Shown here piece by piece: positions 22,222-46,666 of a stretch of 64,000 nt of DNA. The position numbers and the translations under genes are program-made. This DNA comes from an uncultured Gammaproteobacteria bacterium (lineage in GTDB: Bacteria; Pseudomonadota; Gammaproteobacteria; Eutrophobiales; Eutrophobiaceae), in assembly GCA_951812995.1 (NCBI GenBank), contig CATOTD010000002.1:131468-195467 (forward strand), read 5' to 3'. The first letter of the stretch is position 1. Each line of letters opens with the position of its first letter. The notes beneath the pieces are model-generated. The model was not told the DNA's origin. It saw nothing but the letters and a program-made list of their open reading frames with translations, and ran no database searches.

Positions 22222-22309
22222 CCCCCCTCCCGTTTCAAGGAGTTTTGACATGGGTTCTGACGCGGGCATAAAAGCTTTGATATTTTTTGCTGTCGTGCTT
22301 AAAAAAACT

Positions 22310-23608
22310 GGAGGCCTCGAACAACGCTGATTCTGGATGGATTTTGACGCGAGCACCAGTCGTTGTCACCCGCATAGTGGGTGTGAAGGTCAAGGTCGGT
22401 GGTATTTGAGGCTGTGTTGCGCTGTTTGGGTCTGCCAGGGCGGGTATTTCCGGAATTTGGGCGGAGTCAGGCTGTGGCCTGTCGTCGCTCGTGGAAAATG
22501 AGACGGCGGAAGTTGTAGCTCAGGTTGGCCATGGTCATGCGGGCCTTCGCACGGGTTTGGCCGATTGAGCGGATGGTCAGAGCCATGGGCCCTTTCTCGT
22601 AGCCGAACACAGGCGCGGATGGCGGAGCGTGTCGCGTTGCCCCGACGAATATGCCTGGCCATGGGTTTGCCGCGTGGCTTCTTGCGATGGATATGTGAGC
22701 GGTACCCTTGCGCCTTCAGCCAAGCCTCATTCCTGGCCGAGCGGTACCTGGTATCGGCCCAAACCGCCTTCGAGCTGTTTGTCTCGTCCAGAACCGAGGA
22801 GCGTTCATGCCCGTCGTAGCGAGCCGCATTCGTGCCAGTCTCACCCCGGATGAAGCGCCATTTGCGGTCAATGGACACGTGGTTCTTGTACCCAAAGTGT
22901 GGGACCGAAATATCGACAAGGCCAGTATCCTCCTCACCCTCCTTGGTCGTCTTGGCCTTTGAATACTTGACCGTCCAACGCGCATCGGTGTCTTTCTGCG
23001 CTGCCTTGGACAGATCATCGGGCCAGATGTCAGACGCGGCCTCACCTGCCTTGGCGCGCGCTTTCTCTGCTTTCGTCATCCGCTGGCGCGGGGCAAAGAC
23101 CAACGTGGCATCCATAATCTGACCGCCGGTCGGTTTGTATCCCCGCGCGCACAGCTGAGCTTCAAACGCGGCAAACAGGGCCTTGCAGACACCCGCCTGG
23201 GTCAGCTTCTCTCTGAAAAGCCAGATCGTTTTTTGGTCGGGGGTTGGCTCCCCGATTTGAAATCCCAGGAACCGTAGCCAACTGAAACGGTCACGAATGA
23301 GAAACTCCATCCGCTCATCGCTCAGATTGTGCATCGAGGCCAAGACCAGCACCTTGAACATCACAACGGCATCATAGGGTGGGCGACCACCTTTGGGACG
23401 TTCCCCATAGCCAAGCGCTTCAACAAGAACTGGGCGAAACACTTCGAAATCAACGTGCCGCTCCAAAACCTCAAGCGGATCTCCCATCGCCGAAAGCCGC
23501 GCCAAATGATCCGTCAAATCAAACAATCCAGGTGCGGGCATAAACAAAATCCTCCCACACCCAATGAATCAGATCGTACCACAAAATGTACGGTTTTTAG
23601 AGGCTTCC
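22310..23608 (-). mobile_element. IS-A copy 1 (IS5-family, GC-rich)
   Basis: The boundaries come from comparing three copies (also 25221-26519 and 36769-38067). One end reads GGAAGCCTCTAAAAACCG (complement ends at 23608), the other GGAGGCCTCGAACAACG (from 22310), an imperfect inverted repeat. It is much richer in G and C than the surroundings and codon use is unlike the neighbours, suggesting arrival from a GC-rich donor such as an alphaproteobacterium (inference). It truncates IS-B copy 1. Confidence 0.8.
22466..23541 (-). pseudogene. IS-A transposase, copy 1 (frameshift near the catalytic Glu)
   Basis: From ATG 23541 (after GGAGG) the frame reads an IS5-type DDE transposase: MPAPGLFDLTDHLARLSAMG, GYGERPKGGRPPYDAVVMFK, TPDQKTIWLFREKL, QIMDATLVFAPRQR (first Asp), FGYKNHVSIDRKW and VWADTRYRSARNEAWL (second Asp). 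After RSAIRAC the frame is wrong; one base on it continues FGYEKGPMALTIRSIGQTRA ... FHERRQATA, the proper C-terminus, ending at 22466. The gap is where AVEHVF normally stands, so an 8- or 11-nt deletion has removed the third catalytic residue (Glu). Copy 1 lacks the amber codon of copies 2 and 3. Confidence 0.82.
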
Positions 23609-24532
23609 ATCTGACTTTGGTAAATCCATATTGTCGCTACATGATATGAAAGACATGCTCAACCTTGGCACGGACTTTGGATTTGTGCCGGTTTTTAGCC
23701 TTGTCCTGTTCGGTCAGTTTGCGGTGACGTGAGCCTTTGACCTGGGTGTAGTCTTTTACCTTGGGGTCATTATCCTTGAGTACGGATTGCTGACCCGCAT
23801 AGGCACTATCTCCCCAAAGACGGGTCTCTTCTCCATGCAGCAGGTCTCCAGGTACCTGTGAGTCGTGGACATTGGCTGGTGTGGCAACAACAGAGTGTAT
23901 CAGTTTGGTTTTGCTATCCACACCGATGTGTGCCTTCATGCCAAAGTACCATGGCTTGCCTTGTTTGGTCTGATGCCTATCAAGGTCACGGGTTTTGCTT
24001 TTGTTCTTGGTGGCGGTAGGCGCATTGATGATGGTCGCATCAACAATAGTGCCTTTGGATACTTTCATGCCGTTTTCCTCCAGATAGACGGCAACAGCAT
24101 CAAACAGGGCAACTCCGAGGTTGTTCTCCTCCAGTAGATGACGGAATTTACAGCGGGTGCTTGCATCTGGCACGGGTTCCTGACCTAAGTCTATCTGGGC
24201 AAAACACCGCATGGCAGGTGTGTCATATAAAGCCGCTTCTGTGGCAGGATCAGATAAGGCAAACCAGTGTTGCAGGAAGTAGATTCTCAGCATGCGTTCC
24301 ATGCCCACCGGACGGCGACCAGCACCCCGGGGGTTGGGGTAATGAGGCTCAATTACTGCAGTCAGCGCTTTCCAGGGAATGAGCTGATTCATCTCTTCGA
24401 GAAATATCTCTTTGCGTGTCTGCTTGCGGTATTTCTCGAATCCAGAACCTGCCAGGCTTTTTTGTTGCATCTTTTGACCCTCCACTTAAAACATTGCGGT
24501 ATTATCGCATATTATGGAATTAATCAGAGGTT
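23609..24532 (-). mobile_element. IS-B copy 1 (IS5-family), truncated by IS-A copy 1
   Basis: Identical in layout to IS-B at 33801-34977 but cut on the left at the IS-A junction (23608/23609), losing about 270 bp beyond the transposase amber codon. The right end, ...TTAATCAGAGGTT, is short of the full terminal repeat by several bases and adjoins an IS256-type remnant. Confidence 0.75.
23637..24470 (-). CDS. IS-B transposase copy 1, ends at an amber codon before the usual C-terminus
   Basis: 277 residues from ATG 24470 (preceded by GGAGGG; the frame is open to 24485). IS5-type DDE transposase: RRPVGMERMLRIYFLQHWFAL, DASTRCKFRHLLE, GTIVDATIINAPTATKNKSK, PWYFGMKAHIGVDSKT, LWGDSAYAGQQ, then KVRAKVEHVFHIM and TAG. 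The catalytic Glu in VEHVF is kept. In complete relatives the protein continues after HIM; the copies at 33801 and 59063 still hold that continuation after the same TAG. Confidence 0.8.
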   Translation of the reverse strand: MQQKSLAGSGFEKYRKQTRKEIFLEEMNQLIPWKALTAVIEPHYPNPRGAGRRPVGMERMLRIYFLQHWFALSDPATEAALYDTPAMRCFAQIDLGQEPVPDASTRCKFRHLLEENNLGVALFDAVAVYLEENGMKVSKGTIVDATIINAPTATKNKSKTRDLDRHQTKQGKPWYFGMKAHIGVDSKTKLIHSVVATPANVHDSQVPGDLLHGEETRLWGDSAYAGQQSVLKDNDPKVKDYTQVKGSRHRKLTEQDKAKNRHKSKVRAKVEHVFHIM

Positions 24533-25220
24533 CCAAAAATTTTATAGATAGTCCCAAAAACTATGTAACTGCTTATCATTGATTATTGCCCCGAAGGGGT
24601 TGAGGATAAGCACATGCAACCCGAAGCAATCAAATCACTGGCACGTGAAACTGCCAGGGGCATCAAAACCGAAGAAGACCTGTATACGTTTCGTCAGGCA
24701 TTGACCAGGGTAAGCATTGAGGCGGCACTGAATGCCGAGTTCGATGAACACCTTGGCTATGCCAGACATGAGTAGGCCGGAAAATCCAATAACCGTAATG
24801 GTCGCAGTCATAAAATGCTGTGCACTGAAGAGGGCGCATTCGAGCTGGAAACACCACGCGACAGAAAGGGTAGCTTGGTGCCAGCACTGGTCAAGCAACA
24901 CCCATCTCGCTACACCGGTATGGATGACAAGATTCTCAGTCTCTATGCCAAAGGCAATACCACCTGTGACATTGTCGCGCTGTTTCAGGAAATGTAGGGC
25001 GTGGCGGTCTCAATCAGCCTGCTCTCGTGTGTGACAGAAAAGGTGATTGCGTGGCAATCGGCCACTAGCACTGATATACCCCATTACATACCTTGACTGC
25101 ATAGTCGTTACAATCCGCCAGGACAAGAAAGTCATCAACAAGGCTGTCTATCTGGCACTGGGCGTGAACCTGGAAGGACTACAAGGCGGTTGTAGTCGAC
25201 TTGTAGCAAATCTACCAGAT
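24533..25220 (+). pseudogene. IS256-family transposase remnant, 5' part (split by IS-A copy 2)
   Basis: From ATG 24614 the frame reads MQPEAIKSLARETARGIKTE, ALNAEFDEHLGYARHE, then TAG, KSNNRNGRSHKML, ETPRDRKGSLVPALVKQHPS, LSLYAKGNTTCDIVALFQEM, TAG and more damage, up to [19 protein letters not shown]. That is followed directly by [10 protein letters not shown], so about 70 codons with the catalytic core are deleted. The reading then breaks at IS-A copy 2 and resumes at 26520. No functional product is possible. Confidence 0.8.
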
Positions 25221-26519
25221 GGAAGCCTCTAAAAACCGTACATTTTGTGGTACGATCTGATTCACTTGATGTGGGAGGATTTTGTTTATGCACGCACCTG
25301 GATTGTTTGATTTGACGGATCATTTGGCGCGGCTTTCGGCGATGGGAGATCCGTTTGAAGCTCTGGACTGTCATGTGAATTTCGAAGTGTTTCGCCCAGT
25401 TCTTGTTGAAGTGCTTGGCTATGGGGAACGTCCCAAAGGTGGTCGCCCGCCCTATGATGCCGTTGTGATGTTCAAGGTGCTGGTCTTGGCCTTGATGCAC
25501 AATCTGAGCGATGAGCGGATGGAGTTTCTCATTCGTGACCGTTTCAGTTGGCTGCGGTTCCTGGGATTTCAAATCGGGGAGCCGACACCTGATCAGAAGA
25601 CGATCTGGCTTTTCAGAGAGAAGCTGACCTAGGCGGGTGTCTTCAAGGCCCTGTTTGCCGCGTTTGAAGCTCAGCTCTGCGCGCGGGGATACAAACCGGC
25701 CGGCGGTCAGATTGTGGATGCCACGTTGGTCTTTGCCCCGCGCCAGCGGATGACGAAAGAAGAGAAAGCGCGCGCCAAGGCAGGTGAGGCCGCATCTGAC
25801 ATCTGGCCCGATGATCTGTCCAAGGCAGCGCAGAAAGACACCGATGCGCGTTGGACGGTCAAGTATTCAAAGGCCAAGACGACCAAGGAGGGTGAGGAGG
25901 ATACTGGCCTTGTCGATATTTCGGTTCCGCACTTTGGGTACAAGAACCACGTGTCCATAGACCGCAAATGGCGCTTCATCCAGGGTGAGACTGGCACGAA
26001 TGCGGCTCGCTACGACGGGCATGAACTCTCCTCGGTTCTGGACGAGACAAACAGCTCGAAGGCGGTTTGGGCCGATACCAGGTACCGCTCGGCCAGGAAT
26101 GAGGCTTGGCTGAAGGCGCAAGGGTACCGCTCACATATCCATCGCAAGAAGCCACGCGGCAAACCCATGGCCAGGCATATTCGTCGGGGCAACGCGACAC
26201 GCTCCGCCATCCGCGCCTGTGTTCGGCTACGAGAAAGGGCCCATGGCTCTGACCATCCGCTCAATCGGCCAAACCCGTGCGAAGGCCCGCATGACCATGG
26301 CCAACCTGAGCTACAACTTCCGCCGTCTCATTTTCCACGAGCGACGACAGGCCACAGCCTGACTCCGCCCAAATTCCGGAAATACCCGCCCTGGCGGACC
26401 CAAACAGCGCAACACAGCCTCAAATACCACCGACCTTGACCTTCACACCCACTATGCGGGTGACAACGACTGGTGCTCGCGTCAAAACCCATCCAGAATC
26501 AGCGTTGTTCGAGGTCTCC
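25221..26519 (+). mobile_element. IS-A copy 2, inserted inside an IS256 remnant
   Basis: Same element as 22310-23608 but in opposite orientation, so the two copies form an inverted pair about 1.6 kb apart. The IS256 reading frame stops at QIYQ on the left and resumes as SATEAEALLVLDV on the right, which defines the insertion point. Confidence 0.82.
25288..26362 (+). pseudogene. IS-A transposase, copy 2 (amber stop plus frameshift)
   Basis: Identical in design to copy 1. A TAG at about 25630-25632 follows WLFREKLT, where copy 1 has CAG (Gln), and the catalytic-Glu deletion with its frame change is also present. The C-terminal frame (FGYEKGPMAL ... HERRQATA) ends at 26362. Confidence 0.82.
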
Positions 26520-26950
26520 AGTCAGCTACGGAGGCGGAAGCACTGTTGGTGCTTGATGTCTTTGGTGACGAATGGGATGCCAAATACCCTAAGACCAGCC
26601 GCTCCTGGCAGAGTCATTGGCAAAACCTCAACACCCTGTTTGATTACCCGCAGGACTTGCGCAAGACAATCTATACCACCAACGCCATTGCAGCGCGCAA
26701 CAGCGTCATCAGGAAAGCCATCAAAAAACGTAAGTTGTTTCCAACCGACAACGCTACCAGAAAGGTGAACTATCTGGCCATTCAAGATGCATCAAAGAAG
26801 TGGACTATGTCGATTAAATATTGGAAACCAGCGATGAATCGCTTTATGATCGAATTCGAAGACCGACTAAAGGACTTCGTTTAACCAACGGCAGTTACAC
26901 AGAATTCGGGAAAGGCTCGAAACAGAAAGTGCGAAAGATTCTTTACACTA
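26520..26950 (+). pseudogene. IS256-family transposase remnant, 3' part
   Basis: Continuation of the element at 24533: LVLDVFGDEWDAKYPKTSRS, IYTTNAIAARNSVIRKAIKK, SKKWTMSIKYWKPAMNRFMI, ending at the TAA at 26884. The normal IESLN stretch is IAARN here. The end of the element is near GTGCGAAAGATTCTTT at about 26930-26945, similar to the IS256-type end at 36768. Confidence 0.78.
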
Positions 26951-27472: not shown

Positions 27473-30379
27473 ATGGTCTGGTGGAAAAAGATTGCCACAA
27501 TACTGTTGTTATTCTCGCTCGCCGCCCTTGCGCAAGCACAAACCAACACACTCTACTGGCAACAAATCGGCAATCTACCGGACGCGACTGGGTTAACTGA
27601 ACAACAACCCAACCTCGGTGTTGCCGGTCCCTTCGTGGGAACTCACAGAGGGGCTCTTATTGTTGCGGGCGGAGCGAACTTTCCCGTACCAAATGGTCAA
27701 GGTCTGTGGGATAAAAAGACACAAAAAATCTATTATAATAAGATATGGGTGGCGACCCGAGGACCTGGTTCAGATACCGATGAAAACGGCACAATTTCAG
27801 CTGCTGAACGCCCGCTGCTATGGCATAACAACAATGTTACACTGCCGGGGAACCGCGCTTACGGTGCATCAGCGAGCCATTCACTGGGTATGATTATGGT
27901 CGGCGGCAGTGATGGAAACAACAACTATTCCGATGCCTACCTGTTGCGCTGGAACGAATATTCGCAAGAACTTACTGTCCTGCAACTACCGCCCCTGCCA
28001 AGTATTTCCGTTAACGGTGGCGCAGTGGTAATCGGGAATGTGTTATACGTCATGGTCGGCAGCAACGGAGAATCCGCTACTGGTGATTTATATGCTTTTG
28101 ATTTATCCCGCATTGAAACGGATGAAAATGGTGTCCCCGTAAGCAATGGCAACCACGTCACGATTTTGAAAAAAGCAGACATGTATGGTGAACAAATTAA
28201 ACCATGGCAAAAATTGCCCTCTTTACCAGAATTTGACGGAGAGAATCTAGCTCGAACCCACATGATGCTCACAACACAAAATGACGGACGAGGAGACAAG
28301 CTCTATCTCATGGGCGGTCGGCGCAATACTACGCTTTTTGAACATCCCGATGCGTTCCCCGTTGAGCTTGGTGACAAACGTTATTACCTGCACTACTACA
28401 GCGATGTGTGGGCCTTCAATCCCATGGCAAAAACAAAAACCGACGCATGGTCGAAAAAATCAGATATATCAATTGACGGTATCACTACCATGCGTAGTGC
28501 TGCTGGTACCGCCATTACCTTTGGGCAATCCCATATATTGCTATTGAGCGGTTCAGATGGTAGCCATTTACGCAAGGCTTTTGGTGATCAGGAGGTTGGC
28601 TGGGCGGACTACCCCACTCATCCCGGCTTCAATCGCCAAACTCTGTCATATAACGCTATTACTGATGCATGGACTAGTTATGGTGATGCCCCACTGATCA
28701 CCGATCCCATGGGTGTAAACGGACATGAAGTCGCCGCCAACGCAGTGACGACACCCGCAGTCAGCTGGGAAGGTAGCATTGTCTTGGTATCAGGTGAACT
28801 ACGTCCACGAGTGCGTTCACCGAAAATTTGGAAGATCGCGGTCGAAGACCGCCAAACGGATTTTGGTCTAACAAACATGACGGTGCTGTTCGTTTACTTA
28901 CTAGCCATGGTCATGGTAGGTGTTTATTTCGTCACTAAGAACAAAAACACAGATGATTACTTTCGTGGTGGGCAGAATATTCCTTGGTGGGTTGCGGCCT
29001 GCTCAATGTATGCCACTATGCTCAGTTCGCTCACCTACGTAGCCCTGCCTGCCTTGGTTTATCGCACCGACTGGTTGGTCTACATAGGCACTATGATGAT
29101 TGTGGTGGTGGCACCCATTGCAATTTATGTGGTTATGCCTTTTTTCCGACAAATTGATGCTACCAGCGCCTACGAATATCTCTCCAAACGCTTTAATATG
29201 CCGGTTCGACTCTTTGCCAGTAGCCTTTTCACCCTGTTCCACATCGGCAGAATGGGAATTGTGATGGCACTCACAGCCTTGGCACTGGCGACGGTCACCC
29301 CGCTGGATGCTTGGCAGTGCGTATTCATCATGGGAATGCTGTGCCTGATCTATTGCACTCTCGGCGGCATTGAGGCAGTGGTATGGACTGACACTATCCA
29401 GACTGTGGTGCTCCTGATAGGTGCCATTGTATGCTTCTTTTATCTGCTCAACGGTATTGATGGCGGCTTTACTGGCTTCATTGACGCGGGAATGACGGCT
29501 GACAAATTCAAGATGGTAAATCTGGATTTTGGCCTAGGTAGTATCAGCACTTTGTCGCTATGGGTGATCATACTGGGGGGTATTGGCCAAAACATATCCA
29601 GCTACACGGCAGACCAAGCGATAGTCCAGCGCTATATGGTAACCAGTGATGCTCGGGTAGCCGCGCGCGCAATTTGGGCCAATGCGATATTGGCGATACC
29701 CGGTGCGCTACTATTTTTCTGCATAGGTACCGGTCTGTTCGCATTTTATCAGTCACAACCAGGCAAATTGGATCCCCTCATTCAGATCGATCAAATATTC
29801 CCAGCCTTTATTGCAACCGAACTACCAGTGGGAATTGCCGGATTGATCGTCGCAGGCATTTTCGCTGCAGCCCAATCAACCGTGTCCACCAGCATGAACT
29901 CGCTCTCCACGACACTGGTAACTGACTTTCTGAGGCCATTCAACATTTGCCGGAACGAACACAAATATTTGAATGCGGCTCGTCTCCTTACCTTCACCGT
30001 CGGTATACTAGGTACGCTGATCGGCCTGCTATTTATCAACCCGAAAATTGGTTCTCTGATGGAAGAATACTTCAAGGTTATCGGCATGTTCATGGGCGCA
30101 CTGGGTGGCCTGTTCATACTGGGGATTACGACGCGGCGAGCCAACGGCTGGGGCGCACTGATAGGCCTTTTTACCGGAGTTGGTTTGATGGTAACAACTT
30201 GGCTGATGCAATGGGCGAACGGCTACCTATTTGCTACTATAGGTATTCTCATTTGTTTGCTGGTGGGTTATCTGGCAAGCCTGTTGTTGCCGTCTGATAA
30301 CAAAAATCTAGATGGCTTGACGCTACACACCCTTAACACCCAAGATCGCGAGATCGAAAGCCCAACAGCATCAGCATAA
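27473..30379 (+). CDS. NanM-type N-acetylneuraminate mutarotase fused to an SSS-family symporter
   Basis: 968 residues from ATG 27473 (GGAGAC upstream; a TTG one codon earlier is also open). A signal peptide (MVWWKKIATILLLFSLAALA) leads into an extracytoplasmic Kelch-type beta-propeller (about 25-455; GGANFPVPNGQGLWDKK, GSDGNNNYSDAYLLRW, LYLMGGRRN) like NanM, which interconverts sialic acid anomers. From about 463 follows a sodium:solute symporter with 12-13 membrane segments (TKNKNTDDYFRGGQNIPWWV, CSMYATMLSSLTYVALPAL, YLSKRFNMP, GGIEAVVWTDTIQT). The fusion ties anomer conversion to uptake. NanE, NanK and NagB downstream support sialic acid or ManNAc as substrate. Confidence 0.88.
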   Translation: MVWWKKIATILLLFSLAALAQAQTNTLYWQQIGNLPDATGLTEQQPNLGVAGPFVGTHRGALIVAGGANFPVPNGQGLWDKKTQKIYYNKIWVATRGPGSDTDENGTISAAERPLLWHNNNVTLPGNRAYGASASHSLGMIMVGGSDGNNNYSDAYLLRWNEYSQELTVLQLPPLPSISVNGGAVVIGNVLYVMVGSNGESATGDLYAFDLSRIETDENGVPVSNGNHVTILKKADMYGEQIKPWQKLPSLPEFDGENLARTHMMLTTQNDGRGDKLYLMGGRRNTTLFEHPDAFPVELGDKRYYLHYYSDVWAFNPMAKTKTDAWSKKSDISIDGITTMRSAAGTAITFGQSHILLLSGSDGSHLRKAFGDQEVGWADYPTHPGFNRQTLSYNAITDAWTSYGDAPLITDPMGVNGHEVAANAVTTPAVSWEGSIVLVSGELRPRVRSPKIWKIAVEDRQTDFGLTNMTVLFVYLLAMVMVGVYFVTKNKNTDDYFRGGQNIPWWVAACSMYATMLSSLTYVALPALVYRTDWLVYIGTMMIVVVAPIAIYVVMPFFRQIDATSAYEYLSKRFNMPVRLFASSLFTLFHIGRMGIVMALTALALATVTPLDAWQCVFIMGMLCLIYCTLGGIEAVVWTDTIQTVVLLIGAIVCFFYLLNGIDGGFTGFIDAGMTADKFKMVNLDFGLGSISTLSLWVIILGGIGQNISSYTADQAIVQRYMVTSDARVAARAIWANAILAIPGALLFFCIGTGLFAFYQSQPGKLDPLIQIDQIFPAFIATELPVGIAGLIVAGIFAAAQSTVSTSMNSLSTTLVTDFLRPFNICRNEHKYLNAARLLTFTVGILGTLIGLLFINPKIGSLMEEYFKVIGMFMGALGGLFILGITTRRANGWGALIGLFTGVGLMVTTWLMQWANGYLFATIGILICLLVGYLASLLLPSDNKNLDGLTLHTLNTQDREIESPTASA

Positions 30380-30410
30380 TGCTCGTGCATAAACCAAAGG
30401 TATATTACTA

Positions 30411-31118
30411 GTGACACCAGTAAACACAACGCTGGAGAGTAAACTTCTCGATCAGTTAAAATATTCCCTGATTGTATCGTGCCAACCTGTAGATAACGGA
30501 CCTATGGATAAAGTGGATCATATAGTCGCGATGGCACTAGCCGCTCTCGATGGTGCTGCCGCAGGACTACGTATCGAAGGTGTTGACAATGTCCGTGCCG
30601 TAGCCGCTACAACTGATACTCCGATAATTGGCATCGTGAAACGTGACTTGCCGGATAGCCCTGTGCGTATTACCCCATTTGTCGAAGACGTGGTTCTGCT
30701 TGCCGAAGCTGGTGCGAGTATTATTGCCTTTGATGCTACTGACCGTGTTCGTCCCACCTCCTGCGAAGAATTACTGAACGCCGTGCACACCAAAGGCTGT
30801 GTTGCCATGGTGGACTGCTCAAACTATTCTGAAGGGGTTGCCATGGCCGATATGGGCTGCACTTTCATTGGTAGCACCTTATCCGGATATGTGAATCCAG
30901 ATAACACACCGCTTACTCCCGATCTGCAGTTGGTGGAACAATGGGTTGCACTGGGCTACAACGTTATCGCAGAGGGACGATATAACTCTCCAGAGCGAGC
31001 GAGTCAGGCCATCAGTGCTGGAGCATGGGCGGTGACCGTTGGCTCGGCTATAACACGCATTGAACATATCACTAGTTGGTTTGTAGCCGACATTAACAAT
31101 ACAGCGGCGAAAGTCTAA
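30411..31118 (+). CDS. nanE: N-acetylmannosamine-6-phosphate 2-epimerase
   Basis: A 235-residue TIM-barrel enzyme turning ManNAc-6-phosphate into GlcNAc-6-phosphate. Family stretches are [73 protein letters not shown] and [11 protein letters not shown]. The start is GTG at 30411, 31 bp after the transporter stop. nanK follows after 10 bp, so the genes form one operon. Confidence 0.93.
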
Positions 31119-31128
31119 AGATTTCGAC

Positions 31129-32019
31129 ATGATTATTGGTATTGATATTGGTGGCACCAAAATTTCAGCGGCCCTGATGAATGACAATCATATCGTTGAG
31201 CAACGTAGCGCAGCGTCACCGATTCACGATGATTTATCACAACTCCTGCCAACCATAGCACATTTGCTAACAGGTTGGACGGGGCAGGCTAACGGCATCG
31301 CCGTTGGTTGCACTGGTCTGGTTAGTGACGCTGAAGTACGCTTTATGTCCGTAGGCGCAGACAAGGTACTACCACTCAAATCCCTCTTATTTGAAATGTT
31401 TTCCCTTCCAGTTCTGATATTGAACGATGCCTGGGCTGCCGCTTGGGGTGAGCATTGCCTGGGCAACCACACCCCTGAAGACACGCTGGTTTACGTTACC
31501 ATCTCAACTGGTATCAGTGGTGGAATTATCCAGAATGGTCGTTTACTCACTAGTCGGCACGGCTTTTCCGCCCATCTGGGACACCTCACAGTGACCCGCA
31601 ATCACGATAACAACATGCTCTGCGTTTGCGATCGGTGGAACTGCGTTGAAGCCGTAGCATCAGGTAACGCTATTGGATGCCGAGCCAGCGAACTGCTGTC
31701 ACAAAATATAAGCTGCAACGAAGTATTTGAGTGTCTGGACAGTCAGCCAAAACTTGTTGTTCTGATCGAAGACTGCGCTAAGGCAGTGGCGGAAATGATC
31801 GCCAACATAAAGGCAGTTACTGGCACTGAGTTAATTGTGTTGGGCGGTAGCGTCGGACTCAACAAAATATTCCGGAGCAAAATAGAGCTGGCATTGGCTA
31901 AGCTGCCTGAAGTTTACGCGGTAAAATTAGCAATGCCAGCACTGGGTAGGGACGCTGATATCATCGGTGCCGCATTATTCGCAATACAAAACAATTTCTC
32001 GAAGAAGTCCCATGACTGA
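31129..32019 (+). CDS. nanK: ROK-family N-acetylmannosamine kinase
   Basis: 296 residues with the ATP-binding IGIDIGGTKISAAL, NDAWAAAWGE, YVTISTGISGG, GHLTV and a zinc-site-like CVCDRWNCVE, where the usual CxCGxxGC has D in place of the first G. Phosphorylates ManNAc to ManNAc-6-phosphate, the substrate of NanE. Its stop codon overlaps the start of the PIG-L gene (CATGACTGA), so the two are translationally coupled. Confidence 0.88.
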   Translation: MIIGIDIGGTKISAALMNDNHIVEQRSAASPIHDDLSQLLPTIAHLLTGWTGQANGIAVGCTGLVSDAEVRFMSVGADKVLPLKSLLFEMFSLPVLILNDAWAAAWGEHCLGNHTPEDTLVYVTISTGISGGIIQNGRLLTSRHGFSAHLGHLTVTRNHDNNMLCVCDRWNCVEAVASGNAIGCRASELLSQNISCNEVFECLDSQPKLVVLIEDCAKAVAEMIANIKAVTGTELIVLGGSVGLNKIFRSKIELALAKLPEVYAVKLAMPALGRDADIIGAALFAIQNNFSKKSHD

Positions 32020-32848
32020 TAACAACATCGATTTTTTCGTGCCCGACGGACGACCCTTGCAAGATGCTCTCGTGCGCACGACTCACCTTGCCATCGTTGC
32101 CCACCAAGACGATCTGGAGATAAACTGCTTTCATGGTATTGCCCAATGTTACCAACGCAGTGACTTGTGGTTTACCGGCATAGTAATAACCAATGGTGCA
32201 GGCTCACCTCGCGGTGGGTATTACGCATCTGTCAGTGATGATGAAATGGTGACAATCCGTAATGAGGAGCAAAAACAAGCTGCGTCACTAGGCCAGTATT
32301 CATTGGTCATTCAGTATGGTGCCAGCAGTTCTCAAATTAAAGGGCGGCGTGATCACTCACTGATCGTTGATCTTGCTAACTGGATGAAATTAGCCAAGCC
32401 ACAGATCATCTATCTGCACAATATTGCCGACCGTCATGACACACATGTCAGGACAGCGATCCATGCTCTGGATGCATTGAAGTTGATACCGGAGAATGAA
32501 TTTCCCGAGCAAGTTCTTGGGGTAGAGGGCTGGAGAAACCTAGACTGGTTGCCAGATCCTTATCGTAGCCGTCTGGATGTGGGACAGCACCGCCAGTTGC
32601 ATGATCAACTGATCCGATTATTCAAATCCCAAGTGGCGGGAGGTAAGCGCTATGATTTAGCGTCGGAGGCGCGTCACCGTGCCAATGCCACATTTGATCA
32701 GTCACACACTATAGACACCACAGAATATGTATCGCTCGCAATGGACCTTCTACCCTTACTCAAGCAACAAAATTGTCAATATAGCGACTACCTCGGATCA
32801 ATAGTCGAAGATTTTTTATCTGACTCAACAAGAATTTTAAACTCATAA
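32012..32848 (+). CDS. PIG-L/LmbE-family N-deacetylase
   Basis: 278 residues from ATG 32012 (overlapping the nanK stop by 8 bp; upstream open frame to 31967 is ignored). The zinc site is seen as AHQDDLE (AHxDD) and HNIADRHDTHVRTAIHALD (HxxH). Family members remove N-acetyl groups from GlcNAc-containing sugars. NagA, the usual GlcNAc-6-phosphate deacetylase, is absent from the cluster, and this gene sits exactly between NanK/NanE and NagB, so it may fill that step (inference). Confidence 0.88.
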   Translation: MTDNNIDFFVPDGRPLQDALVRTTHLAIVAHQDDLEINCFHGIAQCYQRSDLWFTGIVITNGAGSPRGGYYASVSDDEMVTIRNEEQKQAASLGQYSLVIQYGASSSQIKGRRDHSLIVDLANWMKLAKPQIIYLHNIADRHDTHVRTAIHALDALKLIPENEFPEQVLGVEGWRNLDWLPDPYRSRLDVGQHRQLHDQLIRLFKSQVAGGKRYDLASEARHRANATFDQSHTIDTTEYVSLAMDLLPLLKQQNCQYSDYLGSIVEDFLSDSTRILNS

Positions 32849-32864
32849 CTTAGGAGACTCTTAA

Positions 32865-33671
32865 ATGGAAGTCGTCATTGTTAAAAACCCAGACGATGTT
32901 GCCGTCCATGCGGCGAAACGCATTGTTGAATTTATGATTAAAAAACCTGATGTGGTACTTGGGTTGGCGACAGGTAACACCCCTATTGCACTCTATGAAC
33001 GGCTGGTTGCGATTTACAACGAAGGCAAGTTGAGTTTTCAGGACGCAACAACTTTTAATCTTGATGAATATATCGGAATTGAACCATCAAATCCTCAGAG
33101 CTACCGAAGCTTCATGAACACACATTTGTTTGAGAAAGTAGACATAGCCCAAAGCCGCACTCATGTACCCGAATGTCCTCCAGGCGAAAACCCCCGTGTC
33201 ATCGGAGACGCATATGAACAAAAAATTACTGCCGTCGGCGGTATCGATTTACAGATTCTCGGCATCGGCAGCAATGGTCATATCGGCTTCAACGAACCTT
33301 ATTCAAGCCTTGCCTCAAGAACTAGGGTCAAAACCCTGACGCAACAAACAGTTGCAGATAACAACCGATTATTCGCTAGCGGAGAATTCCAACCTCAGCT
33401 CGCCATCACCATGGGTATCGCAACAATTCTAGAGGCGAGGCATATCCTGTTACTCGCCACTGGAAAACAAAAGGCATCCTGCATTCGTAAAGCGATCGAA
33501 GGCCCAGTTTCCGCAATGTGTCCAGCATCGGCATTACAAATGCATAGATACACCACTGTTATTCTCGATGAGGATGCAGCTAGCGAGTTGAAGGAGTCAG
33601 ATTACTATCGCTGGGTAAATTTAAAACACGAGTCACTGGTCGATGAATACGGGTATTTTCATAATGATTAA
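32865..33671 (+). CDS. nagB: Glucosamine-6-phosphate deaminase
   Basis: 268 residues: LGLATGNTPIALYERL, FNLDEYIGI (catalytic Asp), QSYRSFMNTHLF, LGIGSNGHIGFNEP (catalytic His and Glu), RVKTLTQQTVADNNRLF, and TMGIATILEARHILLLATG. Converts GlcN-6-phosphate into fructose-6-phosphate and ammonium, completing amino-sugar breakdown. It follows the PIG-L gene by 16 bp and ends the operon; IS-B copy 2 lies about 130 bp downstream. Confidence 0.95.
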   Translation: MEVVIVKNPDDVAVHAAKRIVEFMIKKPDVVLGLATGNTPIALYERLVAIYNEGKLSFQDATTFNLDEYIGIEPSNPQSYRSFMNTHLFEKVDIAQSRTHVPECPPGENPRVIGDAYEQKITAVGGIDLQILGIGSNGHIGFNEPYSSLASRTRVKTLTQQTVADNNRLFASGEFQPQLAITMGIATILEARHILLLATGKQKASCIRKAIEGPVSAMCPASALQMHRYTTVILDEDAASELKESDYYRWVNLKHESLVDEYGYFHND

Positions 33672-33800: not shown

Positions 33801-34977
33801 AAGGAACATCTGATCAATTAAGGATTTTCAAGCAAGTGGGCATCACTGTGCTCGATAGTAGCGAGCATTGAACGTCTTGCTCATTACTCTCTTTCATTTC
33901 TCTTGTCCCGGCCTACTGTTTTCAGCTATCGCCCCTATTCCAGGCGTACTAAGCCACTGATAGCCGTAATAATTGTTTCTTTGATAGCATAAGATTAATC
34001 AGGGCACAGTGGGCAAACAGGTGGTTCGCATTCTTGCCTGGCCCTTTGAATCTGACTTTGGTAAATCCATATTGTCGCTACATGATATGAAAGATAGGCT
34101 CAACCTTGGCACGGACTTTGGATTTGTGCCGGTTTTTAGCCTTGTCCTGTTCGGTCAGTTTGCGGTGACGTGAGCCTTTGACCTGGGTGTAGTCTTTTGC
34201 CTTGGGGTCATTATCCTTGAGTACGGATTGCTGACCCGCATAGGCACTATCTCCCCAAAGACGGGTCTCTTCTCCATGCAGTAGGTCTCCAAGTACCTGT
34301 GAGTCGTGGACATGGGCTGGTGTGGCAGCAACAGAGTGTATCAGTTTGGTTTTGCTATCCACACCGATGTGCGCCTTCATGCCAAAGTACCATGGCTTGC
34401 CTTGTTTGGTCTGATGCCTATCAAGATCACGGGTTTTGCTTTTGTTCTTGGTGGCGGTAGGCGCATTGATGAGGGTCGCATCAACAATAGTGCCTTTGGA
34501 TACTTTCATGCCGTTTTCCTCCAGATAGACGGCAACAGCATCAAACAGGGCAACTCCGAGGTTGTTCTCCTCCAGCAGATGACGGCATTGACAGCGGGTG
34601 CTTGCATCTGGCACGGGTTCCTGACCTAAGTCTATCTGGGCAAAGCACCGCATGGCAGGTGTGTCATATAAAGCCGCTTCTGTGGCAGGATCAGATAAGG
34701 CAAACCAGTGTTGCAGGAAGTCAATTCTCAGCATGCGTTCCATGCCCACCGGACGGCGACCAGCACCCCGGGGGTTGGGGTAATGAGGCTCAATTACTGC
34801 AGTCAGCGTTTTCCAGGGAATGAGCTGATTCATCTCTTCGAGAAATATCTCTTTGCGTGTCTGCTTGCGGTATTTCTCGAATCCAGATACTGCCAGGCTT
34901 TTTTGTTGCATCTTTTCACCCTCCACTTAAAACATTGCGGTATTATCGCATATTATGGAATTAATCAGAGGTTTCTT
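33801..34977 (-). mobile_element. IS-B copy 2 (IS5-family), complete ends
   Basis: 1177 bp bounded by related inverted ends AAGGAACATCTGATCAATT (33801) and AAGAAACCTCTGATTAATT (complement, ending 34977). The flanks read TTAA and TTAG in the YTAR-type target style of IS5 relatives, not identical, so no clean duplication is claimed. Confidence 0.75.
33949..34911 (-). pseudogene. IS-B transposase copy 2, amber codon with conserved downstream frame
   Basis: Open from ATG 34911 to TAG at 34078 as in copy 1, with a few substitutions (KVEPIFHIM here instead of KVEHVFHIM, so the usual Glu-His-Val is Glu-Pro-Ile). After the TAG the same frame continues RQYGFTKVRFKGPGKN and ends at 33949, matching the normal C-terminus of the family. 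Either the amber is read through at low level or the element now relies on the short form. Confidence 0.72.
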
Positions 34978-35425
34978 AGAGGTAACACATCAGGTTTTGC
35001 ATCGTTAACTGCCAACCAACTATAAGCTTACTCTATGTGCCAGCAGAGACTGGAATGATAATGTATGTGTTGCTCTTCGCTGGACGGTGGCTACCCATTA
35101 TGGCATTCAATGATCATTAACTCGGTGATCTTACAATATTTGTAACCATCAAATTAAAAGCTTAGTTTTACCACCGAAGTATCAACATTGAAATAATAAA
35201 AAACGCACAATAATAATCGTCAAACTCAACCAACTATAGGCCTATCTGGTGTCCACTCCATTATTCCAGATGGACCCCTGACTGTGGTAGTTTTTATTGT
35301 CACAAGCTATTTATTTCATCATTCCAGACAGAAACTTTTATGTTCATCCAGTGCTGGGGCAATAGCAATATTGTCTACGTGCTGTATTTGCCCGAGACCG
35401 ACCACATGATTGGATAACATAAATT
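34978..35425. other. Intergenic between two IS elements, no gene recognised
   Basis: Contains a short direct repeat (CCAACCAACTATA at about 35011 and 35228) but no ORF or RNA signal that I can support. Probably remnant sequence right of the nan island. Confidence 0.4.
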
Positions 35426-36768
35426 ATCTTTCGCAAATATGAAGAGGCGGTTTTCCTTTATCTGGTTAAATAAAAAGTGACATAACCATTTATTTGACCA
35501 GGAGAAGAGTCGCCATGAGCGATTATACAAGCAAGCACTTGAACAACGTAGTCCCTATTGATGAACAGGAACTGCAGGGCCATCTCAACAAAGTGGTACT
35601 GAAGACTGTGGAAGACACCCTTAACCAGATTCTGGACGCTGAGGCTGATGCGCTGGTGGGTGCTGATCGATACGAACGCACTGAGACGCGCAAAGACGAC
35701 CGGTCTGGTAGCTACACCAGGAAGTGCCACACAAGGGCTGGAGAGCTTGAGTTAAAGATGCCGAAGCTACGCAAGCAGACCTTTGAGATGGCGATCATAG
35801 AGCGCTATCGACACCGTGTAGCGTCTGTCGAAGAGGCACTGATTGAGATGTATCTGGCAGGTGTTTCAGTACAACGTGTAGAAGACATTACCGCAGCATT
35901 GTGGGGTACCCGTGTCAGCTTAGGGACTATTTCAAAGCTCAACCAGCGTATCTATGGGCAGATTGAAGAGTGGCGTAATCGCCCCATAGGGAGTGATTTC
36001 CCTTATGTATACCTGGACGGTGTTGTGCTCAAACGCAGTTGGGGCGGTGCAGTGAAGAACGTTTCTGTTCTAGTCGCCATAGGTGTTGGGGACGATGGCT
36101 ACCGCCGCATTCTAGGGATTGTTGAAGGTACTAAGGAGGATAAGGTGGGATGGTCAGGATTCCTGCGTCATTTAAAGGCACGCGGTCTCAAGGGCATCAG
36201 GTTGGTGCTCAGTGATGCCTGTCTTGGGCGCAAGGAGTCGATCGGTGACTTCTACCCTGATGCTGAGTGGCAGCGTTGTATTGTGCACTTCTACCGCAAC
36301 GTCTTCAGTCATGTGTCTCGTGGTCGTGTCAAAGAAGTCTCTCGCATGTTGCAGGCTATTCATGCATCTGAATATCTGGAATCTGCCAGGCATAAGGCCA
36401 CGGAGGTCGAGAAGAAACTCAGGGACATGAAGTTATCGAGTGCGGCGGATTGGCTGGGTAGTGCATGGAAGAGACCCTGACGTATTATCGGTTTCTGGCA
36501 GAGCACTGGATTCGCATTCGGACTAACAATCCTTTGGAGAGGATCATTCGAGAAATCAGGCGGCGAACACGAGTAGTGTGTGCATTCCCGGATGGCAACT
36601 CGGCGTTGATGCTTTGTGCGGCAAGGCTTAGACACATCGCGGGGAGCTAGTGGGGAACGCGGACATATCTGAACATGGATTTGCTCCAAGAGATGGATAA
36701 AGAAAAGGATTTTCAGGTAGCGTAACAACCAGATTTAAGGGAAAGCCAAATCAGAAAATGCGAAAGAT
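35426..36768 (+). mobile_element. IS256-family element with visible inverted ends
   Basis: The left end ATCTTTCGCAAATATGAAG (35426) and the right end, whose complement reads ATCTTTCGCATTTTCTGAT (36768), are clear inverted repeats with further matches inside. IS-A copy 3 begins at the very next base (36769). Confidence 0.78.
35515..36725 (+). pseudogene. IS256-family (Mutator-type) transposase, frameshift and late amber
   Basis: From ATG 35515 (AGGAGAAGAG upstream) the frame reads LDAEADALVGADRYERTETR, GSYTRKCHTRAGELELKMPK, YVYLDGVVLKRSWGGAVKNV (Asp), LVLSDACLGRKESI (Asp) and QRCIVHFYRNVFSHV. Near 36463 a missing G (GCATGGAAGAG for GCAGTGGAAGAG) shifts the frame; in the next frame EETLTYYRFLAEHWIRIRTN, NPLERIIREIRRRTRV (Glu) follows, then a TAG at 36648 and the end at 36725. 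One indel and one stop inactivate it. Confidence 0.82.
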
Positions 36769-38067
36769 GGAAACCTCGAACAACGCTGATTCTGGATGGA
36801 TTTTGACGCGAGCACCAGTCGTTGTCACCCGCATAGCGGGTGTGAAGGTCAAGGTCGGTGGTATTTGAGGCTGTGTTGCGCTGTTTGGGTCTGCCAGGTC
36901 GGGTATTTCCGGAATTTGGGCGGATTCAGGCTGTGGCCTGTCGTCGCTCGTGGAAAATCAGACGGCGGAAGTTGTAGCTCAGGTTGGCCATGGTCATGCG
37001 GGCCTTCGCACGGGTTTGGCCGATTGAGCGGATGGTCAGAGCCATGGGCCCTTTCTCGTAGCCGAACACAGGCGCGGATGGCGGAGCGTGTCGCGTTGCC
37101 CCGACGAATATGCCTGGCCATGGGTTTGCCGCGTGGCTTCTTGCGATGGATATGTGAGCGGTACCCTTGCGCCTTCAGCCAAGCCTCATTCCTGGCCGAG
37201 CGGTACCTGGTATCGGCCCAAACCGCCTTCGAGCTGTTTGTCTCGTCCAGAACCGAGGAGCGTTCATGCCCGTCGTAGCGAGCCGCATTCGTGCCAGTCT
37301 CACCCCGGATGAAGCGCCATTTGCGGTCAATGGACACGTGGTTCTTGTACCCAAAGTGCGGAACCGAAATATCGACAAGGCCAGTATCCTCCTCACCCTC
37401 CTTGGTCGTCTTGGCCTTTGAATACTTGACCGTCCAACGCGCATCGGTGTCTTTCTGCGCTGCCTTGGACAGATCATCGGGCCAGATGTCAGACGCGGCC
37501 TCACCTGCCTTGGCGCGCGCTTTCTCTGCTTTCGTCATCCGTTGGCGCGGGGCAAAGACCAACGTGGCATCCATAATCTGACCGCCGGTCGGTTTGTATC
37601 CCCGCGCGCACAGCTGAGCTTCAAACGCGGCAAAAAGGGCCTTGAAGACACCCGCCTAGGTCAGCTTCTCTCTGAAAAGCCAGATCGTCTTCTGATCAGG
37701 TGTCGGCTCCCCGATTTGAAATCCCAGGAAACGCAACCAACTGAAACGGTCACGAATGAGAAACTCCATCCGCTCATCGCTCAGATTGTGCATCAAGGCC
37801 AGCACCAGCACCTTGAACATCACAACGGCATCATAGGGCGGACGACCCCCTTTGGGACGTTCCCCATAGCCAAGTGTTTCAACAAGAACTGGGCGAAACA
37901 CTTCGAAATCAACGTGCCGCTCCAAAACCTCAAGCGGATATCCCATCGCCGAAAGCCGCGCCAAATGATCCGTCAAATCAAACAATCCAGGTGCGTGCAT
38001 AAACAAAATCCTCCCACATCAAGTGAATCAGATCGTACCACAAAATGTACGGTTTTTAGAGGCTTCC
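36769..38067 (-). mobile_element. IS-A copy 3
   Basis: Third copy of the GC-rich IS5-type element, inserted exactly at the terminal base of the IS256 element ending at 36768. Ends GGAAACCTCGAACAACG (36769) and the complement of GGAAGCCTCTAAAAACC (38067). Confidence 0.82.
36926..38000 (-). pseudogene. IS-A transposase, copy 3 (amber stop plus frameshift)
   Basis: Same reading as copy 2: the amber after WLFREKLT (complement of CTA near 37656) and the deletion at the catalytic Glu are shared. The two open parts are 38000-37656 and 37574-36849; the proper C-terminal frame ends at 36926. Copies 2 and 3 are thus closer to each other than to copy 1. Confidence 0.82.
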
Positions 38068-38160
38068 AGTTTATTGGCTCAGAGAGGTTAAAAAAATAAC
38101 CAATTTGATCCAAAAAGCCGGTAGTGTCCGTACAGCCCTTGTCTCGGCTTTACTTCGTTT

Positions 38161-40122: not shown

Positions 40123-40944
40123 ATGAAGTTTCTTGGAGGCAACATTTATCAAGGCGATTGCCTGGAAGTCATGAAAGATATTCCCGATCAGTCGATTGGG
40201 ATGATTTTGTGTGATCTTCCTTATGGGATCACACAAAACAATTGGGACAGCGTTATTCCGTTGGATGATCTTTGGGCAGAGTATCAGCGCATCATCAAAC
40301 CACGGGGCGTTATAGCCCTTACGTCACAGGGTATTTTTACCGCGAAACTCATTCTGAGCAATGAAGCATGGTTCGTTACAAATTTGTTTGGATAATAAAG
40401 TAAGTCAACCAACTTTTTGAACGCCCGCCGCCAGCCATTGCGACAGCATGAGGATGTGTGCATTTTTTACGGTAAACAGCCTGATTATCGACCTATTATG
40501 CAACAGGATGAACCCTACGACAAAGGCACTCGCAAGAATCAATATACGGGTAGCTATGGGGACTTCAAGCCTGTTCATGTCAAGAGTAACGGGGAAAGAT
40601 TCCCCACCGATACGCTGTATTGCAAGACTGTCGAAAGCGAAGCTGGGGGGCGTGTCTGGCATCCAACACAGAAACCTGTTGCTTTGGGCCGCTATCTGAT
40701 ACGCATGTTCACTGGCCCGGAAGATGTTGTTCTCGACAATGCCTTTGGTAGCGGCAGTTTTCTTGTTGCTGTTGCAATGGAGGAAAGGTGCTATATAGGC
40801 ATTGAAAAAAACGAAGAAGTTCATCTCTTCAAAAAAGAGCGCATCGATTATATAGCCGTTGCTCAAGAACGCCTTGAAGAAATTAAGAATATGTTTGCTC
40901 GAGACGAGGCACCCCCCCGCCCTTCTTTCAGCGTTGTAGCCTAG
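40123..40944 (+). pseudogene. DNA N4/N6-methyltransferase (beta class), two in-frame stops
   Basis: The first part (40123-40395) has YQGDCLEVMKDIPDQSIGMI and LCDLPYGITQNNWD (motif IV, DLPY for DPPY). Two TAA codons stand at 40393-40398. The same frame then continues NARRQPLRQHEDVCIFYGKQ, VWHPTQKPVALGRYLIRMF and NAFGSGSFLVAVAMEERCYI (motif I region). The order IV then I makes it beta class. A one-base loss after AATTTG and a one-base gain after ATAAAG would explain the stops and restore WIIK-KSTNFLNA. No partner endonuclease is complete. Confidence 0.75.
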
Positions 40945-41018
40945 TACCGCACCGAGAAAATCAAGCGGCGCGGGATAATTGATGTGGATGAGATATTGAA
41001 GCAGGCGCATGAGGTTTA

Positions 41019-43483
41019 ATGAATATCGAGCTTAGGTATAACGAGCGGTCGTGGGCCATTGATCTAATTGGCCATATCAAATCTGTGGTATCCGCACAGA
41101 ATCGTGCCATCAAAGATGCTGGTGGTGAACAAACAATCATAACAGACGGGGGGAGTTTATTCCCGGATGTGTTGCTGTTTGGAGACCGTTCCCTTGCCCT
41201 TATCTTGCAAGGGTGGGAATTGAAAATGCCAGATACGAGCATTGACGACCACGAGTTCCAACACAACGCGACACAGAAGGCAATCGCCTTGGGGCTGGAT
41301 AGCTTTGTTTTGTGGAATGTTTCTTATGCTCACTTGTATATTAAACAAGGTGATAAATACACCTGCCGGAAAAAATGGGATACTCTTGCTCATATCAAGA
41401 GCCGCAATAGTGTTTCCAGCAACAGAGCGCAATGGGGAGCCCTTGCCACAGAAATCATCAATTATGTGAATGACCTATTCGACCGAAAGTCATTGGAAGG
41501 TAGGCAGTTCGTTGAAGCCTACAAAAGCGGCGGCATTACTTCTCTTATCATGGAAAACACGGACGATGTAGCCAATGCATTGGAAGCAGAGGCTCGGCGG
41601 AATTCCAATCTAGGGGCAGAAATAACACTGTGGTGGAAGCGGCATAAATCCGAATACGGCGGCGGCGATGACCTATATAAAAAACTAGCACAGTCCAATA
41701 TTGCCAACTGGATTGGCAAATTCTTGTTCGCACATATCCTGCAAGGACGGGATAGCCGAGCGCAGGCCGTCACCCAGATAGGGGACATCACTACGCCGCT
41801 TGAGGCGCTGAAGATATTCGAACGCCTGTCACAGGATTGCAATTTCTGGACGATCTTTTTTGGCAATATCGATCTTGTTGTCATGCCGGAACAAGCATGG
41901 AAACAGATGCGGCAACTGAACAAGCTGCTTACGGACCTAAGAATTGGCGCAATTGAGCAAAGCCAGTTTTCCAGGATTCTTGAGGCCACGGTTGAAGTAG
42001 CGGTTCGCAAGTTGCGTGGACAATACCCAACCCCGCCAACTCTGGCAAACCTTCTGGTACAGCTATGCGTGGATAACATTGAAGATGACAGGGTGCTTGA
42101 CCCGTGTTGCGGTAGCGGGACTATTCCGCGCGCCGCACTGGAGCAGAAATTAGCCGCTGGCGTTGCTTCGGAACAAGCATCATCATCCGTATTTGCAGGA
42201 GATGAAGACTCACAGGCTATTCAGATTGCCGCCTTTGCAATGACAAAGCCAGACCTGATGAACATCCCCTTGCGTCTGTTTCGGCGGGATGCTTTTTCCC
42301 TCAAGCCTGATACCACATTAGAGTTTAGCGATCCTAGCACTGGGCAACCGTTCACCGAGCAGGCCGGGCAATTCAATGCTATCACCAGCAATCTTCCCTT
42401 TGTTGCACAGGAGGGACGCACCCAATACGGTAACGCTATTACACAGGTCACAGCATCTTTTGGGGCAGGTACTGGCAGGTTGCCGCAAACTGCTGATGTT
42501 GCGGCTTACTTGCCATTTGCATTGCGTTCGCTTTTGGTTGAAGGGGGAAAACTGGGAGTTATCATAACAAATTCGTGGCTTTCGACTACGTGGGGTGAAG
42601 CGTTCTTTGATCTCTTGGGGCGTTATTATCATTTGCGATTTGTTATCACATCTGACGCAGGCCGCTGGTTTCAAAACAGCACCGTTGTGACGAATATTCT
42701 TGTTATGGAGAAGAAGAACAACTTGGACGAAGCGGATAAGCTGATTAATTTTGTGGTTCTTACCCGCCCGTTGGAAGAATTGTCTGATATTGCAGACATC
42801 AACCTAACTGCCTCACAAATCCGGCTTGCAAATCAGCATGATGATACGATGACCATTCGCAGCGTGGCGCGAGACAGCATCCAACAGTTCCGGTCCTACG
42901 GATTAGGTGGCAATGCTCAGTTTGTGGATTGCAATTGGGTGCTAGACTTTCCCCTTGTGCCGGTTAAGTCACTGTTCCAAATCCGGCGTGGTGCGCGCAG
43001 AGGGTGGGACAGATTGTTCTATCCAGAAGCAGGTCACGACATCGAGGTAGCCTACATCCGCCCTGTTCTGAAAAACCCAAAAGAAATAAGTCGCTACACA
43101 ACCACCACAGGTAGCGATGCTTTTAGTTGTTCCCTTAAGCATTGCGGAACTGGAACAGGCTGGTCATACTGGTGCGTTAAACTGGATACGCACGTTTTGA
43201 AAATGCCACAAACGAAACAGGCACCACCCTCACCCAAACATTGGCCCGCAGGGGACTACATTGGTATGAGATGGGAACGGACGCGCTTGCCGATCTGGTC
43301 ATGCCACTGAATTTCGGTAACAGGCTGTTTGTGTCTCGTATGGTGCCCGCCGCCTTTGCTAATCAACGTCTCATTTGTTTCAATGCCAAGGATGGAGTTG
43401 ATCTTGATCTGTGCCATGCCTTACTGAACTGTGCCATTAGTCTGTTTATGATTGAAGGGATGGGCTTTGGGCGTGGACAAGGG
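41019..43483 (+). pseudogene. Large N6-adenine methylase with N-terminal nuclease-like domain, frameshifted and truncated
   Basis: The main frame runs 41019-43310. Near the start FPDVLLFGDRSLALILQGWE-LKMPDT has the PD ... ExK pattern of a restriction nuclease. Methylase motif I is VLDPCCGSGTIPRAAL and motif IV ITSNLPFV (NLPF instead of NPPF). A one-base shift near 43130 changes frame; the neighbouring frame continues IAELEQAGHTGALNWI ... LARRGLHWYEMGTDALADL up to 43483, where an IS256 end begins. The layout, nuclease-methylase-target recognition in one chain, is that of type IIG enzymes. Damage makes activity unlikely. Confidence 0.7.
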
Positions 43484-46606: not shown

Positions 46607-46666
46607 TTGAACACCGTCATCACGCAGGGTGTTACTCAATCCCGTTTATTTGTTATATTACCCTGA
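46607..46666 (+). promoter_or_regulatory. Leader ORF overlapping each GT42 start codon (translational coupling candidate)
   Basis: In the spacer before every intact gene a frame begins at TTG, preceded 6 bases earlier by GGAG, and reads 19 codons (MNTVITQGVTQSRLFVILP if TTG initiates) to a TGA whose A is the A of the gene's ATG (CCCTGATGG). The ATG itself has no Shine-Dalgarno sequence. The same ORF starts at 47805, 48997, 50194, 51395, 52587, 53779, 54971 and 56159; before genes 5 and 10 the ribosome site is GGCG. An AT-rich TTATATT 7 bases before the ATG could alternatively be a -10 box for leaderless transcription. Confidence 0.5.

Follow-up and report, generated by a model that had tools for sequence, protein, structure and literature searches.

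The 64,000-nucleotide stretch of DNA analyzed here (the window) is positions 131,468 to 195,467 of contig CATOTD010000002.1, from assembly GCA_951812995.1 of an uncultured gammaproteobacterium of the family Eutrophobiaceae. It carries an amino sugar operon with a gene for a PIG-L/LmbE-family protein. Judged from its sequence and gene context, this protein is quite likely the GlcNAc-6-P (N-acetylglucosamine-6-phosphate) deacetylase of the operon, a non-orthologous replacement for the unrelated enzyme NagA. The operon consists of five close-packed plus-strand genes spanning 27473-33671, with all reading frames intact:

27473..30379, plus strand: kelch-SSF fusion transporter of 968 residues, with a signal-like N-terminal segment, a NanM-like kelch mutarotase domain, and a C-terminal SiaT-type SSF symporter
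30411..31118, plus strand: NanE, N-acetylmannosamine-6-phosphate (ManNAc-6-P) 2-epimerase (PF04131, 250.6 bits; NF002231, 293.7 bits)
31129..32019, plus strand: NanK-like ROK-family kinase, predicted N-acetylmannosamine (ManNAc) kinase (PF00480 [ROK], 175.7 bits; best NCBIfam model NF003461)
32012..32848, plus strand: PIG-L/LmbE-family deacetylase, predicted GlcNAc-6-P deacetylase (PF02585, 46.6 bits)
32865..33671, plus strand: NagB, glucosamine-6-phosphate (GlcN-6-P) deaminase (TIGR00502, 281 bits versus a cutoff of 236.9)

A first-pass annotation had noted that the operon contains NanE, NanK, and NagB but lacks NagA, and that the PIG-L gene is translationally coupled to nanK. Gene calls and family models confirmed the gene content, with no NagA among the genes of 27473-33671. 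The ATG of the PIG-L gene (32012) lies upstream of the nanK stop codon (32017-32019), so that the two genes do overlap, by 8 bases; the spacing between the PIG-L gene and nagB is 16 bases. The PF02585 score of the PIG-L protein exceeds the curated cutoff of 28.2 bits, which places it in the family. The ROK kinase scored 222.7 bits with NF003461 (N-acetylmannosamine kinase), below the cutoff of 283.

The host genome (3.05 Mb, 17 contigs, 99.1% complete) was searched for a nagA gene elsewhere, a check that the first-pass annotation had proposed, and the outcome was negative by two routes. The highest score of the NagA model TIGR00221 anywhere in the genome was 17.4 bits, over 35 positions, i.e., no recognizable NagA. 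This model is an imperfect detector (a Bacillus subtilis control gave no match at an E value of 1e-20), and the Amidohydro_1 proteins were therefore identified individually. The host genome encodes three, a TRZ/ATZ hydrolase of the methylthioadenosine/S-adenosylhomocysteine deaminase type and two dihydroorotases; a NagA outside the operon was thus rejected. The same identification covered 3/3 Amidohydro_1 proteins in genome G255 and 7 of the 10 match rows in genome G036, and none was NagA (the G036 rows outside it were L092, L094, and L096, of which L092 and L094 overlap L090). The operon copy is the sole PIG-L gene of the host genome. When the five best candidates per genome were scored in a class sample of 369 gammaproteobacterial genomes, NagA was detected in 31 and NagB in 5. 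NagA was present in four of the five NagB-bearing genomes, the exception being the host genome.

PIG-L enzymes are typically deacetylases. The AlphaFold model of the window PIG-L protein (mean predicted local distance difference test score, 93) has the Rossmann-like PIG-L fold. In a structure comparison, matches 1 to 22 were known PIG-L-fold proteins (Z, 17.5 to 24.5), and the next rows had Z values of at most 7.8. The top matches were BC1534 and BshB (Z, 24.5; root mean square deviation, 2.1 over 202 to 203 residues), and the archaeal diacetylchitobiose deacetylase (Dac) had a Z of about 22. Sequence identity was 18 to 19% to the BshB and BC1534 structures and 15 to 18% to solved Dac structures. 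The single window protein gave no match to PDB sequences by phmmer at an E value of 0.1, and a 20-row profile of its clade matched PIG-L structures.

The motifs AHQDDLE at residues 30 to 36 and H142-D-T-H145 correspond to the AHxDDxE and HxxH motifs of PIG-L proteins; in the alignment with BC1534, they fall on its metal-site motifs. Residues H31, D33, D34, E36, H142, and H145 are invariant in 20 clade sequences; the catalytic roles of the His and Asp residues are presumably those assigned from MshB and its kin. Six basic residues (Arg67, Lys110, Arg175, Lys212, Arg213, and Arg221) are also invariant or nearly so in the 20-sequence alignment and could hold a phosphate. Searches of Pfam and NCBIfam with the window protein returned no NagA or amidohydrolase match; the Pfam match was PIG-L alone, and the NCBIfam match was BshB1, below its cutoff. 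Identity with the bacillithiol deacetylase BshB was rejected on score (26.6 bits versus the BshB1 cutoff of 182.5). Across the clade, 20/20 members matched the BshB1 model (best E value, 3.6e-9) and 18/20 matched the BshB2 model (best E value, 6.5e-12).

Alignment and phylogeny place the window protein in a distinct PIG-L clade. In the maximum-likelihood tree, a branch with 100/100 support separated the 20 aligned members from 15 distant PIG-L proteins. Clade members are about 40 to 50% identical to the window protein, and the closest relative (50 to 51% identity) is encoded by G036, from the same family. The gene is sparsely distributed: it was found in 2 of 58 relatives searched (host genome included), in 5 of the 369 class genomes at an E value of 0.001 (G253 with a weak match), and, among 398 phylum genomes, in the host genome alone. 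A plasmid search detected no clade relatives. Scanning the contigs of GTDB genomes with the single protein gave no match, and a scan with a two-row alignment gave 64 loci. We regarded 18 of these (L017-L034) as orthologs: 17 are full-length or near full-length, with 40 to 48% best-segment identity, and L034 is a partial match at 38%. The remaining 46 (L035-L080) are weak or partial. L017-L034 and genomes G000, G036, G139, G255, and G354 make up the 22 ortholog genomes (L021 is on the same contig as G255:C109), which fall in seven phyla: Pseudomonadota, Bacillota, Mycoplasmatota, Chloroflexota, Planctomycetota, Verrucomicrobiota, and Bdellovibrionota. In G354 (L015, 8098-8956), the PIG-L gene is split into overlapping frames, through either real decay or an assembly error.

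The genes next to the orthologs point to amino sugar metabolism and provide the principal evidence for the assignment. In G036, genes for a BadF-type kinase, the PIG-L protein, and NagB are consecutive and are followed by genes for two MFS permeases, a TonB receptor, and a GH29 fucosidase; NagA was not found in this genome. In three Piscirickettsia genomes, the PIG-L gene accompanies genes for a NagB-II-like SIS protein, a sugar permease, and a NagK-like kinase, and NagA was found in 0/3. The best models there were NagK_SO3507 for the kinase (183.4 bits) and NagB_SO3506 for the SIS protein (321.9 bits), both below the equivalog cutoffs. On the Piscirickettsia salmonis LF-89 contig (L021, 4590-5502), the kinase gene is in overlapping frames, again either real decay or an assembly error. 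A NagB-II-like SIS protein is also encoded at L018, L031, and L032, with a GntR regulator at L018 (UTRA-type by Pfam) and L032, and NagB is encoded at L027, L028, and L033. Locus L025 has AnmK, MurQ, a BadF kinase, and a ROK-like protein, followed by PIG-L.

We compared the ortholog loci with distant PIG-L loci, leaving out L062 (28 residues matched, at a contig end) and adding L016 to the distant set. At least one tested amino sugar neighbor was present at 17/21 ortholog loci versus 1/46 distant loci, a partly circular comparison in that the queries for the ROK-like protein, BadF, NagB-II, MurQ, AnmK, and GntR came from ortholog loci. A GlcN-6-P deaminase (NagB or NagB-II) was present at 10/21 versus 0/46 loci; the three Piscirickettsia loci represent one lineage and, with the locus-derived queries, make such counts overstate independence. 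Counted with the window's own NagB query alone, NagB was present at 4/21 versus 0/46 loci.

The substrate of NanE is already phosphorylated, and MurQ yields GlcNAc-6-P, so that the window and L025 have GlcNAc-6-P in common. Together, AnmK and MurQ lead to GlcNAc-6-P, as do GlcNAc kinases, and both deaminase types use GlcN-6-P; what links the two sugar phosphates is a deacetylation. The neighbors vary, yet GlcNAc-6-P is common to all settings, and this is why we read the PIG-L protein as a putative non-orthologous GlcNAc-6-P deacetylase. In the window, the ROK kinase would convert ManNAc to ManNAc-6-P, and NanE would epimerize it to GlcNAc-6-P. The PIG-L protein would then remove the acetyl group, using a single divalent metal on His31, Asp34, and His145 with Asp33 as the base, and NagB would convert GlcN-6-P to fructose-6-P and ammonia. 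In other lineages, the PIG-L type would perform the same step starting from GlcNAc (with a kinase and NagB or NagB-II) or from N-acetylmuramic acid (MurNAc; with AnmK and MurQ). The substrate, the metal use, and the direction of flux are those we infer.

The proposal of the first-pass annotation that the PIG-L protein replaces NagA on GlcNAc-6-P thus gained genomic support: NagA is missing, the kinases vary, two unrelated deaminases occur beside the orthologs, and 16 of the 22 ortholog genomes are without NagA. Its alternative, action on imported O- or N-acetylated sugars, fits the set of neighborhoods less well. We also think it fairly likely that the clade is an unnamed type of GlcNAc-6-P deacetylase present in at least seven phyla. 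It would be a plug-in module combined with NanK-like ROK or BadF/NagK kinases and with NagB or NagB-II, in pathways for sialic acid, GlcNAc, and MurNAc. Genomes scored amino sugar negative for want of nagA may use such modules.

Several observations weigh against this assignment, and the first concerns the phosphate. The closest characterized structures, BshB, BC1534, and Dac, act on nonphosphorylated GlcNAc compounds. By analogy with archaeal Dac, a free sugar (GlcNAc, ManNAc, or a chitobiose-like disaccharide) could be deacetylated before phosphorylation; the linked kinase would then be a glucosamine kinase, and such kinases are known within the BadF family. We consider this unlikely. NanE in the window takes the N-acetyl sugar in the form of ManNAc-6-P, and at L025, AnmK and MurQ yield GlcNAc-6-P; deacetylation would therefore have to follow phosphorylation. 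Moreover, the Piscirickettsia and G036 kinases best match the GlcNAc kinase model, although below its cutoff.

The second point concerns the co-occurrence with NagA. No NagA-like protein above 33 bits was found in 16/22 ortholog genomes; most of the 22 are metagenome assembled, and a missing NagA may reflect incompleteness. NagA is present in the other six (five over the cutoff; in G414 it is in two contig-end pieces). In nine loci (e.g., L022, 7578-8969, and L032, 5319-6719), the gene directly before PIG-L encodes a 465-amino-acid ROK-like protein that matches Pfam ROK weakly or not at all. NagA was found in 6/9 genomes with this linkage versus 0/13 others (Fisher P = 0.0011, for a split chosen after the data were seen). 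The linked subgroup, which holds all six NagA genomes, may do something else, and this branch coexisting with NagA may have a sister function. Furthermore, four of the 21 loci (L017, L019, L023, and L034) are without any tested neighbor.

On these grounds, one could suppose that the clade acts on another acetylated sugar phosphate or conjugate (e.g., ManNAc-6-P or N-acetylgalactosamine-6-phosphate), nagB adjacency being secondary. In favor of this, NagA is also present in six of the 22 genomes, nine of the 21 loci are linked to the unassigned ROK-like protein, and a ManNAc-6-P deacetylase would bypass NanE. However, the window retains NanE, whereas NanE is absent from G036 and was not found at the other ortholog loci by tblastn. 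In addition, among the 13 genomes lacking the 465-amino-acid ROK-like protein, a NagB or NagB-II neighbor is present in nine and NagA in none. A different sugar phosphate or conjugate as the substrate of the clade therefore appears very unlikely to us, and GlcNAc-6-P remains the favored candidate.

The third point concerns the entry sugar and the integrity of the operon. The fusion transporter matches Pfam NANM (residues 21 to 163) and SSF (residues 497 to 903) as well as the NCBIfam model mutarot_permut, and its residues 463 to 947 match PDB entry 5nv9 (E value, 5.5e-100). According to the structural paper, 5NV9 is the sialic acid symporter SiaT, and the carboxylate of N-acetylneuraminic acid (Neu5Ac) is bound by Ser60, Thr63, and Arg135 (PMC5931594). 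All three residues listed there are kept in the 5nv9 alignment with the transporter; Thr58 is replaced by Met and Gln82 by Thr. The lyase NanA was not found in the genome: its single PF00701 (DHDPS-family) gene (L097, 1498-2385) is dapA-like, and the neighboring gene appears to be bamC-like, hence a probable dapA setting. Consequently, the name "nan operon" used in the first-pass annotation calls for some qualification. With NanA missing, the operon may be incomplete, and the entry sugar is uncertain. The linkage in the window also rests on a segment flanked by insertion sequences (IS), and of 53 genomes of the family, a single one has NanE.

IS copies with 97 to 98% identity lie on both sides of the operon (window positions 22307-26522, 33813-38068, and 59065-60225), which suggests mobilization of the segment. 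Because of these near-identical copies and the rarity of NanE in the family, the operon looks acquired. It could even be what is left of a sialic acid operon, trapped between IS copies and decaying, in which nanA and perhaps nagA have been lost and the PIG-L protein has no present catabolic role. The flanking IS copies, the presence of NanE in a single family genome, and the missing NanA, with the sole DHDPS-family gene placed beside bamC like dapA, would all agree with this. The five reading frames are nevertheless intact and tightly packed, and lineages in which the enzyme has different partners retain it as well; we regard decay as quite improbable and a functional GlcNAc-6-P deacetylase as the better explanation. 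Among the transposases at 40123-43310 of the window, methyltransferase-like genes were seen in pieces by eye, perhaps a broken restriction-modification locus.

Sialic acid may have another use in this organism. Contig C5 of the same genome (L100, 9452-11662) encodes NeuB and then a NeuA-type cytidylyltransferase that carries a HAD domain at its C terminus, and the genome appears able to make cytidine monophosphate (CMP)-nonulosonate for GT42-like transferases. Such genes lie 12 kb from the operon, at 45525-57336 (plus strand), as ten very similar tandem open reading frames (ORFs) of ~350 amino acids with ~1.2-kb spacing. Two of three scanned ORFs passed the Pfam model CST-I (sialyltransferase, GT42) and the third was just below; a fourth ORF matched CstII-type structures (E value, 1.7e-7; the query started 60 bases upstream of the ATG). 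The tandem ORFs are possibly a recombining sialyltransferase array. Since NeuB, the NeuA-type cytidylyltransferase, and this array are present and NanA is missing, imported sialic acid may feed surface sialylation, with the operon enzymes handling ManNAc; alternatively, nanA may have been lost.

Comparison with known systems helps to place the predicted enzyme. NagA (amidohydrolase superfamily, CE9) shares the predicted reaction and the pathway position (after NanE or NagK and before NagB), but its protein family and fold are unrelated. BshB1/BshB2 and BC1534 share the fold and the metal-site residues; the window protein differs from them by the low identity and BshB1 score given above and by its amino sugar catabolic neighbors. 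Dac shares the PIG-L fold and a role in amino sugar catabolism, but its substrate is a free disaccharide, whereas the neighbors of the window PIG-L gene imply a phosphorylated monosaccharide. The canonical nan operon (NanA, NanT, NanE, and NanK) has in common with the window NanE, a NanK-like kinase, and a sialic acid-type transporter with a NanM-like domain; it differs in having NanA, whereas the window operon includes NagB, the PIG-L protein, and the kelch-SSF fusion transporter. The permease, NagB-II-like, and NagK-like genes of the Piscirickettsia loci are shared with the GlcNAc pathway of Shewanella (NagP, NagA, NagB-II, and NagK), which has NagA where these loci have PIG-L.

The Shewanella work named NagK and NagB-II as novel enzymes, and its text contains no mention of LmbE (PMC2996990). 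Non-orthologous replacements have been predicted in mucin sugar catabolism, in a study that mentions neither "LmbE" nor "PIG-L" (PMC5583593). In the literature searched (mostly titles and the beginnings of abstracts, with few subscription journals), we found no description of a PIG-L GlcNAc-6-P deacetylase. The predicted enzyme probably represents a novel version of PIG-L proteins as well as of the NagA step. The occurrence of clade members beside amino sugar genes in distant bacteria suggests that a substitute for a textbook enzyme has been overlooked.

GlcNAc-6-P deacetylation is the gateway through which GlcNAc, ManNAc, sialic acid, and recycled cell wall enter central metabolism, and NagA is the usual marker for predicting it. 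If the assignment is correct, it would close a pathway gap in the host genome, in Piscirickettsia, a genus of fish pathogens, and in scattered members of further phyla. A PIG-L subfamily whose only NCBIfam matches are to BshB models (far below the cutoff for the window protein) would, moreover, gain a testable substrate. Genomes judged unable to use amino sugars because they lack nagA may then be able to do so.

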